DNA of 45,896 nucleotides, taken from NCBI GenBank assembly GCA_012735275.1, contig JAAYHR010000024.1, forward strand, positions 1-45,896, written 5' to 3'. The notes beneath the pieces were generated by a model. The model was not told the origin of the DNA and did not search any database. It saw only the letters and a program-made list of their open reading frames with translations. The DNA comes from Erysipelothrix sp. (GTDB taxonomy: Bacteria; Bacillota_I; Bacilli_A; Erysipelotrichales; Erysipelotrichaceae). The stretch's first letter is position 1, and every line of letters begins with the position of its first letter. Positions 7,487 to 33,560 of the stretch are shown one piece after another. Both the position numbers and the translations under genes were made by a program.

Positions 7487-7536
7487 ATATATTTGATTGA
7501 TTATTCAAACTCAAGGCTTTACAATATTCATGTTAA

Positions 7537-7608
7537 TCATCAATTTAATGTCTTTAATATGGAAAGACAGTTTCTACTGATAGACCGTAAATCTATCAAC
7601 AATTATGA
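7537..7608 (+). promoter_or_regulatory. Purine riboswitch aptamer, guanine/hypoxanthine type
   Basis: The conserved core is intact: J1/2 TTTAAT, P2 GTCTTT/AAAGAC with loop AATATGG, J2/3 GTTTCTAC, and P3 TGATAGA/TCTATCA with loop CCGTAAA. P1 is TCATcAATT against AATTATGA with one bulged C. The specificity base in J3/1 (ACA, 7599-7601) is C7600, which selects guanine or hypoxanthine rather than adenine. The usual U after it is A here. Downstream, GAGAA/TTCTC (from 7607) could form a weak expression-platform hairpin sharing bases with P1. Confidence 0.9.
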
Positions 7609-7666
7609 GAACTATGAATTTTCTCTTTAATTCATTGGTGGTTAGCCAAGTCAATAGGAGGAAATT

Positions 7667-13907: not shown

Positions 13908-14118
13908 GATAATTAAATCAAAGATTAGGACTAGTAAATATTGTTAATCTATTTAGAGAGTGACTGGTGCTGGAAAGTCATTAGATAAGATATTGAATTC
14001 ACCTATGAGAGAAGTTAATCACTTCCGTAACTACTGCGTTAAAGTAAGGTTAAGACATTTTATAATGTAAAAACAGGATGGTACCGCGATTGTCGCTTCT
14101 GGCTTTGCGGTTTTTTTT
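13908..14118 (+). promoter_or_regulatory. T-box riboswitch, phenylalanine specifier
   Basis: The leader has an AGAGAG motif in stem I (13955-13960), a specifier loop with TTC at 13998-14000, and the T-box sequence AGGATGGTACCGCG (14075-14088). This base-pairs with the CCA end of uncharged tRNA. The usual AGGGTGG reads AGGATGG here. The terminator pairs ACCGC (14083-14087) with GCGGT (14107-14111), followed by T8. Uncharged tRNA-Phe would favour the antiterminator and read-through into pheS. Confidence 0.95.
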
Positions 14119-29801: not shown

Positions 29802-30086
29802 ATGTTTATAAAAAATGGAAAAATTAATGATGACTTATCATTAACAATTGGAATTAAATACAATCAGATTAAGCGTGATTATTTCCCAAACTTGGAAATA
29901 GCACACTTTGTGGATTACTTATTTAACTATAAATGGAAGAAGCACCAACCGCAAACTTTAAGTGATGCGATTGTCGAAGTAATGGCATGTGATGCTGATC
30001 ATATTGTTGTTTACTTATCGAATGCTGCAATAATATCCTCACAACATCAAAGTTTAAATGATTTTGATGACTTATTTGACCGCTAA
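29802..30086 (+). CDS. comN: ComN-like post-transcriptional regulator
   Basis: The 94-residue protein contains a helical core (AHFVDYLFNYKWKKHQPQTLSDAIVEVM, in two parts around KWKK) and ends DHIVVYLSNAAIIS. This resembles the small Bacillota family of ComN/YrzD, which in B. subtilis acts on comE mRNA and binds DivIVA. Its position close to recJ, as in B. subtilis, supports the call. AGGTGAT fixes ATG 29802; earlier in-frame codons are upstream of it. The TAA is one base before the recJ ATG. Confidence 0.55.
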   Translation: MFIKNGKINDDLSLTIGIKYNQIKRDYFPNLEIAHFVDYLFNYKWKKHQPQTLSDAIVEVMACDADHIVVYLSNAAIISSQHQSLNDFDDLFDR

Positions 30087-30087
30087 T

Positions 30088-31680
30088 ATGCAGAATATTG
30101 AGACACTCTTAGCTCAAAATAATGTTGATGGGCTAATTGAAGAAATTATTAAAAGTCAAAACTTATCATACGCACAAGTTGATCAATTATTAAATGATAA
30201 AAAATACACGCTTGTAAGTGATCATTTAGATTTAGTAATTGATCGAATTTATAAGGCGAAAGTTTTAAATGAAAAAGTTGTGATTGTCGGTGATTATGAC
30301 GCTGATGGAATTATGGCTACAACCATTCTTTATAAAGCATTAAGTGATTTTGGAATTGATGTTGGATTCTACATTCCTAATCGTTTTAGTGAGGGTTATG
30401 GGATTAATCCAAATATAGTTAATTTAGTCGCTGATAAGGGCTATTCATTAATTATCACAGTAGATAATGGTGTGGTTGCTTTTGATGCCTTAGATCGTGC
30501 TAAAGAGTTAGGGATTGACTTAATTGTGACTGATCATCATATGTTAAGTGATGATAACGATTATGATTTTGATTACATCCTGCATCCAAAATATTTAAGT
30601 GAAGGATACAAGGTTTTAGCTGGAGCGGGGATTGCTCTAATTATAGCTGAGAGAATTATTAGTAAAGAGCTTTTAGGAGAAATGTATGTTTATGCCATGA
30701 TCGCAACCATTGCTGATATGGTATCAGTCTTTGGTTTTAATCGAAACATTATTAAGAATGGACTATTCTATTTAAATAAACATTCAAATCCTTATATTGC
30801 TAGTTTAATCAATTATCAAAATGGACCAATTGATCAAACAACTATTTCATTTCAAGTTGTTCCAAAGTTAAATACTTTTGGTCGTTTAGCTGATCGTGTC
30901 AATGTTAACAACATGGTTCGCTATTTCTTATTAAGTGATAAGAGTGAGATTGAAAATGTTGCTAAAGAAATAAATAGTCTTAATCAAGAACGAATTAAAC
31001 TAACTAATGATGCTAGTGGCCAAGCTTTAAATGTTAAAAAATATGGAACAATTAATATCTTAATTGATGAGTCAATTCATGAAGGAATTACGGGGCTTGT
31101 CGCCGGTAAGATCCTTAATGAACTTGGTGAGCCAATCCTGGTCTTAACTAAAGTTAATGGCTTATATAAGGGATCAGGCCGCGCACCTAAGGGTTATGAT
31201 ATTCATGCGGTGCTTAATCCACTTAGTGAGTATTTTGAATCATTTGGTGGTCATGCACAAGCTTGTGGTATTTCAATACTTGAAGATAATCTTCAGCAAG
31301 TTTTAGCATTAATTACTGAGCAATCAAGTGAAATTGTCTATCAATGCTTTAAGCAAGACTTTATTCAAATTGATTTAGATAAATTATCAGTTGATATTGT
31401 TAAACAAGTAAGTAGTCTTGAACCATTTGGTGTTGATTTCTTAAAACCTTTATTTAAAATTGATTTAGAAAACTTAAGTACTCCAAGTGTCTTAAAAGAA
31501 AAGTACTTAAAATGGTCACTAAGATCAGATGTTGAATTACTCTGTTTTGATCAATCTCTAGATTTGCCTAAGTTTAAAAATCTAAGTTCAATGCAAGCAT
31601 GTGTTAATTTAGGGCTGAATACTTTTAGAGATAAGACAACCATTAATCTTGTTATGGACTATAAAAACACGATTGCTTAA
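30088..31680 (+). CDS. recJ: Single-stranded-DNA-specific exonuclease RecJ
   Basis: The DHH/DHHA1 exonuclease motifs are complete: VGDYDADGIMAT, TVDNGV, VTDHH, GAGIAL, and GGHAQACGIS in the DHHA1 part. It degrades single-stranded DNA 5' to 3' in recombination and repair. With 530 residues it is shorter than many RecJ proteins, with a reduced C-terminal region. The start is uncertain: ATG 30088 follows the comN stop as TAATATG, fitting coupled restart, while in-frame ATGs at 30058 and 30067 lack a Shine-Dalgarno. Confidence 0.92.
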   Translation: MQNIETLLAQNNVDGLIEEIIKSQNLSYAQVDQLLNDKKYTLVSDHLDLVIDRIYKAKVLNEKVVIVGDYDADGIMATTILYKALSDFGIDVGFYIPNRFSEGYGINPNIVNLVADKGYSLIITVDNGVVAFDALDRAKELGIDLIVTDHHMLSDDNDYDFDYILHPKYLSEGYKVLAGAGIALIIAERIISKELLGEMYVYAMIATIADMVSVFGFNRNIIKNGLFYLNKHSNPYIASLINYQNGPIDQTTISFQVVPKLNTFGRLADRVNVNNMVRYFLLSDKSEIENVAKEINSLNQERIKLTNDASGQALNVKKYGTINILIDESIHEGITGLVAGKILNELGEPILVLTKVNGLYKGSGRAPKGYDIHAVLNPLSEYFESFGGHAQACGISILEDNLQQVLALITEQSSEIVYQCFKQDFIQIDLDKLSVDIVKQVSSLEPFGVDFLKPLFKIDLENLSTPSVLKEKYLKWSLRSDVELLCFDQSLDLPKFKNLSSMQACVNLGLNTFRDKTTINLVMDYKNTIA

Positions 31681-31701: not shown

Positions 31702-31730
31702 GTGACAAATGCTGTTTTATATGTTATTAT
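31702..31730 (+). promoter_or_regulatory. Promoter of the CDF-queT transcript
   Basis: GTGACA (31702-31707), 17 bases, TATTAT (31725-31730) with a TG extension. The predicted start near 31737 coincides with the first base of the leader stem. Confidence 0.65.
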
Positions 31731-31736
31731 AAAATG

Positions 31737-31856
31737 GTCTAATAACAATAATAATTAGACAGTGCAGGAGAAGCATTTATATGAAAATATGAATGGCACA
31801 AAGAGATGGTAGAAGAAGCAGAGAAAAGGGGCTTGTGCCTCTTTTCTTTGTTTATT
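31737..31856 (+). promoter_or_regulatory. Attenuator-like leader before the CDF exporter
   Basis: A first hairpin is GTCTAAT/ATTAGAC (31737-31760). Then three competing pairings are visible: GTGC (31762-31765) with GCAC (31796-31799), closing a GAAA-capped stem (ATTTATAT/ATATGAAT); GGCACAA (31795-31801) with TTGTGCC (31833-31839); and a terminator, GAAAAGGGGC (31823-31832) with GCCTCTTTTC (31837-31846) followed by a T-rich tail. The second excludes both the first and the third, the logic of an antitermination switch. A 21-codon ORF runs through it. It matches no riboswitch class I know. Confidence 0.6.
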
Positions 31857-31858
31857 GA
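31793..31858 (+). CDS. Arginine-rich 21-codon leader peptide ORF
   Basis: The peptide begins MAQRDGRRSREKG and ends LVPLFFVY. It starts directly after a three-codon ORF (ATG AAA ATA TGA, 31781-31792) that has AGGAG upstream, and its codons EKGLVPLF are the terminator hairpin itself. Its TGA overlaps the Shine-Dalgarno (GAGGTGA) of the CDF gene, eight bases before that ATG. Four arginines are AGA codons, clustered before the hairpin. This looks like a translated attenuator; whether the peptide is made is unproven. Confidence 0.45.
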   Translation: MAQRDGRRSREKGLVPLFFVY

Positions 31859-31866
31859 GGTGAAAC

Positions 31867-33036
31867 ATGCATAAGAAAATATTAAATTTATTAATCAAGC
31901 AAAACAAAGATCAAGATTATCGGATGCAAGCTGGCTTACTAAGCTCAATACTTGGAGTAATTGTTAACCTAGCTTTATTTGTAATTAAATATTTAATTGG
32001 TATCGCAACTTACTCTTTAGCAATTACAGCTGATGCCTTCAATAACTTATTTGATTCCTTATCATCGCTAATATCATTCTTTGGATTTAAGATTGCGGCA
32101 AAACCCGCTGATCAAAAACATCCATTTGGACATGGACGTTTTGAGAAGATTGCTGAACTATTTGTATCGCTAATTATCATTGCTTTTGCAATCTTAATGG
32201 CCATATCTTCAGTCAAGAATATCTTTAATCCCCAGACAATTAAGTTTTCAAAGTTAATGGTAGTCCTATTAATCTTTACTTCATTAGTTAAGTTTTGGCA
32301 GTTTTCATTTAACTCATATGTAGCGGATAAAATTGATTCAAAATTATTAAAAGCTACTGCCAAAGATTCACTTAATGATGTACTTATCAACTTAGTTATC
32401 ATTGTTGGATTAATTTCTGAGCATCTCTTTTCACTGAAGTTAGATGGAATCTTATCCTTACTACTATCGGTTTACATAATTGTTGGTGCACTGTCAATGT
32501 TAATATTAGCCATTAAAGAGTTACTTGGTCATAGAATAACTGATGATCAACTGAAGGCTATGGATGATTTACTTTTATCATTTAATGAAATACTGGGCTA
32601 TCATGATTTAATTGTCCACCAATATGGTCATAATCGTATTTATGCCAGTGTCCATATTGAAATTGATGCCCGTAAGACATTACTTGCGGCCCATGATATT
32701 TCTGAATCAATTGAGTTTGCTTTTAATAAGGATTTAAATGTTGATTTAGTTGTCCACTTAGATCCAGTAGTTTTAGATGATGAATATTTAGCTGATATGC
32801 AGGCTTTAGTTAAGGATATTGTTTATAACTTTAATTCTGAATATAGTATTCACGATTTTAGATTGATTAAGCATAAGAATAATAATATAATCTCTTTTGA
32901 TATTGTCGTAAATGATGATAATTTAAGTGATGTAATGATTATTCAGGCAAAATCCAAAGAAATAAGAAAGTTTTATAAGAAAGACGTTTATATTACGATT
33001 GATCGTAATTATTTACAATTGAGGAGAGATTTATAA
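31867..33036 (+). CDS. Cation diffusion facilitator, manganese-type signature
   Basis: A 389-residue CDF transporter with six membrane helices and a C-terminal cytoplasmic ferredoxin-like domain (about 220-300), plus a further C-terminal extension. The transport-site residues read N59-x3-D63 in helix 2 and D167-x3-D171 in helix 5. Zinc transporters have HD-HD here, while the ND-DD set belongs to Mn exporters such as MntE and MneP/MneS. Export of Mn (or Fe) is therefore the best guess. GAGGTGA lies before the ATG, and the stop overlaps queT as TAATG. Confidence 0.85.
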   Translation: MHKKILNLLIKQNKDQDYRMQAGLLSSILGVIVNLALFVIKYLIGIATYSLAITADAFNNLFDSLSSLISFFGFKIAAKPADQKHPFGHGRFEKIAELFVSLIIIAFAILMAISSVKNIFNPQTIKFSKLMVVLLIFTSLVKFWQFSFNSYVADKIDSKLLKATAKDSLNDVLINLVIIVGLISEHLFSLKLDGILSLLLSVYIIVGALSMLILAIKELLGHRITDDQLKAMDDLLLSFNEILGYHDLIVHQYGHNRIYASVHIEIDARKTLLAAHDISESIEFAFNKDLNVDLVVHLDPVVLDDEYLADMQALVKDIVYNFNSEYSIHDFRLIKHKNNNIISFDIVVNDDNLSDVMIIQAKSKEIRKFYKKDVYITIDRNYLQLRRDL

Positions 33037-33560
33037 TGTCTAGTACTAAGAAGATAGTTAGAATTGCGCTAATTGCCGCAATATATTTTGTGATTTCAAT
33101 GTCACTACAGTTTATGTCCTTTAATTCAATTCAAGTTCGAGTTGCAGAAGCACTTATCGTTGCGGCAATTGTTTCTAAAAATGGAATTTATGGCGTGACA
33201 ATTGGTTGTTTAATTACAAATGCAATTGGAACAAGTTTAGGTTTAAGTAATTTTGGGATTTTAGATGTTATATTCGGAACTCTCTTTACTGCGATTTCAT
33301 GTGTATTAGCTTATTACTTAAAGAATTTCAAATTTGGTAAAAACCAAGTACCTTATGTATCTTTAATGATGCCAGTTTTAGTTAATGCAATTGGATTACC
33401 ATTTGTATTTGCTTTTGGATATTATCAAGCACTACATTTACCAGTACTATTATTCGATTTTACAACGGTATTTATCGGTCAGTTTATTTCTTGTATTATT
33501 ATCGGATCGATACTATACACGAAATACTCACAAAGATTTGCTGAATTTTTGAATAATTAA
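33036..33560 (+). CDS. queT: QueT-family transporter (queuosine precursor ECF S component)
   Basis: The 174-residue membrane protein has five or six helices and the family motif QVRVAEAL near the N terminus, followed by YGVTIGCLITNAIG. QueT (COG4708) proteins import a queuosine precursor, often with a preQ1 riboswitch; no preQ1 element is visible here. GAGGAGA lies before the start, inside the end of the CDF gene, so both share one message. Confidence 0.88.
   Translation: MSSTKKIVRIALIAAIYFVISMSLQFMSFNSIQVRVAEALIVAAIVSKNGIYGVTIGCLITNAIGTSLGLSNFGILDVIFGTLFTAISCVLAYYLKNFKFGKNQVPYVSLMMPVLVNAIGLPFVFAFGYYQALHLPVLLFDFTTVFIGQFISCIIIGSILYTKYSQRFAEFLNN

Follow-up and report, generated by a model that had tools for sequence, protein, structure and literature searches.

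What kind of RNA lies between recJ and an operon for a cation exporter and a queuosine-precursor transporter in Erysipelothrix, and what signal might it read? The locus sits in the window, i.e., the whole stretch of 45,896 nucleotides that was analysed, which belongs to a 1.07-Mb, 85%-complete genome (G000). There, recJ (30058-31680) is followed by the leader, a CDF exporter and queT. A BLAST search found the leader at the same site between recJ and CDF-queT in the two further genomes of the genus, which are MAGs filed as Erysipelothrix sp. (G001 and G002; AS09scLD_238 and AS09scLD_16), such that our comparison comprises three leaders. The adjacency of the CDF gene and queT is kept in both relatives. 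In the window, the two genes behind the leader are as follows:

31867 to 33036, forward strand: CDF-family cation exporter, 389 amino acids, with metal site N59/D63/D167/D171
33036 to 33560, forward strand: queT, queuosine-precursor transporter (PF06177, 2.4e-30), whose start overlaps the CDF stop

The site residues of the exporter were placed by alignment to FieF, and this N-D-D-D site is common to 108 of 110 CDF relatives. A DxxxD motif in TM V is the published signature of Mn-CDF proteins (PMC1868760), so the exporter of this operon can fairly be predicted to be of the Mn type. Its ATG start codon at 31867 is preceded by the Shine-Dalgarno sequence GAGGTG.

A preliminary description of the locus had recognized, ahead of queT and a CDF gene with the Mn signature, a structured leader resembling an attenuator, and this much is supported by our analysis. 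The parts of the leader are the following:

31702 to 31730, forward strand: promoter with -35 GTGACA, a 17-nt spacer and an extended -10 TATTAT; 10 of 12 matches, and TG ahead of the -10
31737 to 31760, forward strand: P1 hairpin GUCUAAU-AACAAUAAUA-AUUAGAC, 7 bp (31737-31743/31754-31760), at the predicted 5' end
31762 to 31765, forward strand: 5' strand of P2, GUGC (GCGC in G001), 4 bp, pairing with 31796-31799
31766 to 31773, forward strand: 8-nt 5' bulge AGGAGAAG, Shine-Dalgarno-like, its AGGA invariant in 3 of 3 aligned leaders
31774 to 31795, forward strand: P3 hairpin CAUUUAUAU-GAAA-AUAUGAAUG, 9 bp (31774-31782/31787-31795); loop UUAACU in G001
31796 to 31799, forward strand: 3' strand of P2, GCAC (GCGC in G001), partner of GUGC at 31762-31765
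31800 to 31815, forward strand: purine-rich linker; its AGATGGTAGAAGA is the same in G000 and G001 but has diverged in G002
31816 to 31853, forward strand: terminator hairpin, 17 bp including an A-tract/U-tract extension (31816-31832/31837-31853), its G+C part followed by UUUUCUUU

P1, P3 and the AGGA bulge (31766-31773), which make up the conserved part, had been missed in the first reading. Transcription is predicted to start at about 31737, 7 nt past the -10. A -10-like hexamer is likewise present in G001 and G002, exactly 6 nt ahead of the GTCT of P1, and since P1 begins 7 nt after such an element in each species, it is predicted to form the 5' end of the RNA.

Between species, identity is 75-82% in the core, against 55-57% in the promoter (shuffled baseline 50-53%); for the CDF gene it is 57-64% at the DNA level (baseline 53-55%) and 45% at the protein level. 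All 20 pairs of the fold are kept in all three species (60 of 60 cells hold a standard pair), four of them altered on both sides; when the partners are slid out of register, 28-48% are paired. In P1, 7 of 7 pairs are kept throughout, two having changed on both sides and two via G-U, and in P3, 9 of 9 are kept, with one A-U to U-A change on both sides. P2 corresponds to a GTGC/GCAC pairing (31762-31765/31796-31799) that had already been proposed, and it carries a compensatory U-A to C-G change in G001, which makes it the sole pairing of the first proposal with covariation. With three sequences, the covariation is modest, and 7 of 500 shuffles reach the observed level. RNAalifold, run without guidance, returns the identical fold P1-P2-P3. 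The whole leader has an MFE of -41.3 kcal/mol (z -6.4 versus shuffles), the z values of the core fold are -5.9, -5.2 and -7.6 in the three species, and each core is its own MFE structure. A single A separates P1 from P2 in all three aligned leaders. The P1 loop has a conserved core, AUAAUA, and its length is 10, 9 and 8 nt across the species; such variable spacing fits an RNA hairpin, and the DNA operator of a dimer, which we had considered, was rejected on this ground. Judged by the three-way comparison, the leader RNA is real, conserved and undescribed.

The terminator hairpin with a T-rich tail had been recognized from the outset. Its MFE is -24.3 kcal/mol (z -6.1), and G001 and G002 have terminator hairpins of different sequence at the equivalent place. 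The G+C stem parts are GGGGC/GCCUC, GAGUG/CACUC and GAGG/CCUC, each followed by 7 T in 8 bases, as counted by eye. An automatic scan for terminator patterns lists none of the three leader hairpins, probably since the stem, through its A-tract, extends into the T-tract. In two of the three species (G000 and G002), the terminator is about 10 nt away from the CDF start codon. In G001, a TATAAT-like box with an extended -10 TG was seen by eye between terminator and CDF gene (L050 2590-2638); it is not listed by the automatic scan, and is possibly a second promoter ahead of the CDF gene. A search for an antiterminator with the 5' arm of the terminator masked gave no conserved alternative across the three species. 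Different linker stretches pair with the 3' arm in G000 and G001, and in G002 it is the Shine-Dalgarno region of the CDF gene that does so.

The preliminary description had gone further and proposed a switch of three states, in which a middle pairing, GGCACAA with TTGTGCC, would exclude the other two, and through which two short open reading frames would run:

31781 to 31792, forward strand: ORF1, MKI*, three codons; in G000 and G002, without start in G001
31793 to 31858, forward strand: ORF2, MAQRDGRRSREKGLVPLFFVY, 21 codons, arginine-rich; 8 codons in G001 (MAQKDGRR), no start in G002

The middle pairing does exist in the window (31795-31801/31833-31839), but it is missing in G001 and G002. 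Nor is it competitive: the terminator hairpin dominates, and a full leader constrained to form the middle pairing is about 18 kcal/mol less stable; for transcripts of intermediate length, the penalty is 5-9 kcal/mol. In the ensemble, the middle pairing has a probability of about 0. Among shuffles, a G+C-rich 7-bp match of this kind appears in 2.3%, and any 7-bp match in 38%. The three-state scheme is therefore unsupported, because its middle pairing is neither conserved nor competitive. A similar picture emerges for the reading frames. ORF1 is found again in G002, but in G001 its start codon is absent (ATT TAA), and it probably arises incidentally from the GAAA loop within an AU stem. ORF2 has the 21 arginine-rich codons that were described, and its TGA indeed stops inside the CDF Shine-Dalgarno, overlapping GAGGTG, but it is not conserved in either relative. 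Of the shuffled leaders, 28% contain an ATG-initiated reading frame of 21 codons or more, no reading frame shared by all three leaders was found, and the micro-peptides match no family in Pfam or PHROGs. The micro-ORFs in the leader are probably coincidental. Of the two kinds of control that had been envisaged, translation control via ORF1 and ORF2 is unlikely, and ligand control of the leader is possible. As far as the comparison reaches, what is conserved is P1-P2-P3 plus the terminator, which does not amount to a switch of three states coupled to a peptide.

Does the leader belong to a known class of RNA? Searching the entire window, and the leader down to E = 5, with Rfam 15 (cmscan) gave only chance matches of microRNA or sRNA type on the leader, and the Rfam models confirm the first impression that it does not match the yybP-ykoY, NiCo or preQ1 riboswitches. 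The yybP-ykoY Mn riboswitch (RF00080) is likewise a leader RNA before a metal exporter, but it gives no match here, either at gathering or to E = 5, and the leader lacks its GGGGAGUA loop. The NiCo (czcD) riboswitch shares with the leader the association with CDF exporters, but its architecture is a four-way junction, in contrast to the two simple stem-loops seen here, and its model has no match to E = 5. All three known preQ1 classes control queT, and class I of types I and II is recognised by a UC or AC that precedes the P1 3' strand, and by an A-rich tail (PMC11625349). In the leader, the P1 loop ends in AUA instead, no pseudoknot partner of the loop was found and the first gene is a CDF exporter; no preQ1 class of any kind has an Rfam match on it, which has to be read with caution, as the same library also missed likely type II preQ1-I elements before the queT genes of relatives. 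The T-box model (RF00230) finds nothing at the leader, the sole T-box of the window being located at 13912-14103. This T-box leader, and a purine riboswitch at 7520-7622, are both ordinary for Bacillota. Attenuators governed by a leader peptide also combine a terminator hairpin with short reading frames, but those of the leader are not conserved, ORF2 being absent or truncated in the relatives and ORF1 absent in G001. Antiterminators of the ANTAR type consist of two hairpins with hexanucleotide loops carrying A1 and G4, whereas the loops found here are 8-10 nt long and GAAA or UUAACU, respectively. The leader does have the anatomy of a riboswitch in all three sequences, i.e., a conserved folded domain and an expression platform in a 5' leader.

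This RNA has a narrow distribution. With two covariance models, we searched about 1,000 genomes (316 of the order, approximately 395 of the class and approximately 390 of the phylum) and found no convincing match beyond the genus, though such wide searches score only some candidates per genome and may miss diverged copies. Weak matches with E values of 0.01-0.07 in three small genomes from one other family of the class were taken as chance. The CDF and queT loci of relatives, several of them searched with filters off, gave nothing convincing outside the genus, and the plasmids and phages searched held no real match to the leader. Two long patterns had no exact match in IMG/VR. A looser pattern gave at least 120 matches there, and of the 80 loci examined, none folds like the leader. 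Among 110 CDF loci, it is only in this genus that queT lies near the CDF gene, and the leader and the gene pairing thus occur together.

How might the leader work? The reading that we favour, with our confidence evenly divided, is that of a genus-specific, riboswitch-type transcription attenuator of the CDF-queT operon, an orphan that we propose from its anatomy, a transcription attenuator joined to a sensing domain. In the default state, most transcription would end at the terminator, and polymerase would be let through when P1-P2-P3, the folded domain, perceives its signal. Most likely, this signal would be the divalent metal exported by the CDF protein, Mn2+ first, a metal being favoured because the operon begins with an exporter of Mn signature; a signal from a protein or the ribosome would rank second, and a queuosine precursor third. 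Several observations count against the favoured reading: the covariation among three sequences is modest, no conserved antiterminator was found, and the TATAAT-like box of G001 would allow a separate RNA in that species. Moreover, in G000, the sole pairing that links the domain with the terminator is such that a formed P2 would favour termination, which is the wrong sense for a metal-induced exporter.

The best of the alternatives, though we deem it unlikely, is that the domain of the attenuator binds a regulatory protein or senses translation rather than a small molecule. Structured attenuator leaders are often protein targets, and the single-stranded AGGA bulge is Shine-Dalgarno-like; in G000 and G002, an ATG follows about 10 nt downstream of it. 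However, G001 has ATT TAA in place of this ATG, no reading frame is common to the three leaders, and Rfam recognised no site of a known RNA-binding regulator.

A lower rank still goes to an independent small RNA that has a promoter and a terminator to itself, in which case the CDF gene would be served by leaky read-through or by another promoter. The RNA is indeed flanked by a complete promoter and terminator, and with the TATAAT-like box downstream of the terminator in G001, the RNA could in that species be separate from the mRNA. In G000 and G002, however, the gap of about 10 nt between terminator and CDF gene leaves no room for a promoter, and the synteny with the CDF gene is kept.

Doubtful as well, and placed after the small RNA, is a new RNA class that would sense a queuosine precursor on behalf of queT, with the CDF gene as a passenger of the operon. 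Beyond the control of queT by preQ1 classes (PMC11625349), it draws on the queT loci of the family, of which we read 20 by eye. In 10 of these (L273, L274, L275, L276, L277, L280, L282, L283, L284 and L286), an element with the layout GUCAG-UCGCAAUUAC-CUGAC-A/U-rich-AAAACAAGGAG lies directly upstream of queT. With its stem, UCGCA....AC and the A-rich tail AAAACAAGGAG, it is likely a type II preQ1-I riboswitch, whose published description it fits in having AC ahead of the P1 3' strand (PMC11625349). An Rfam search to E = 1 did not detect these elements, and the model seems to miss this type II preQ1-I subtype. By exact pattern, none was found in the three genomes of the genus, where queT sits behind the CDF leader instead. 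Against a queuosine sensor speaks that the leader adjoins the CDF gene, approximately 1.2 kb from queT, and that it displays no conserved pseudoknot partner, no cytosine-rich loop and no preQ1 match in Rfam. As for a switch of three states that responds to translation of the 21-codon reading frame, its frames and pairings exist in the window, but neither ORF2 nor the middle pairing occurs in the relatives, such that the comparison largely refutes it and we consider it highly improbable.

If the favoured attenuator senses a ligand, the leader would represent a new class of riboswitch with a simple fold and would tie the export of metal to the import of a queuosine precursor, a pairing that we see only alongside this leader. 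It would also mean that narrow RNA classes are missed by wide screens and can be found by reading a single genome with a few relatives. Tentatively, the leader may represent an undescribed riboswitch class of one genus for a metal ion or queuosine precursor, with joint control of CDF and queT, existing besides a Mn riboswitch of the standard type. The latter is a yybP-ykoY-like element that is found in G000 (G000:C62:5628-5804, minus strand; L265 3129-3305) and in G002 (G002:C102:3233-3332; L266). In both genomes it precedes an 871-aa P-type ATPase that is closest to Ca2+-transporting types. Its 25-28 bits fall short of the curated cut-off of 45, yet its GGGGAGUAGC stretch is intact and it is a convincing Mn riboswitch element, which suggests that the ATPase exports Mn2+. 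Because the same genome thus has such an element elsewhere, the leader is a separate element. A DtxR/MntR-type regulator is also present, and with both of these in the genus, Mn need not be the ligand of the leader. At the same two loci (L265 5712-5838, minus strand, and L266 720-808), there is a sub-threshold MicX-like match, which is probably the terminator hairpin after the preceding gene.
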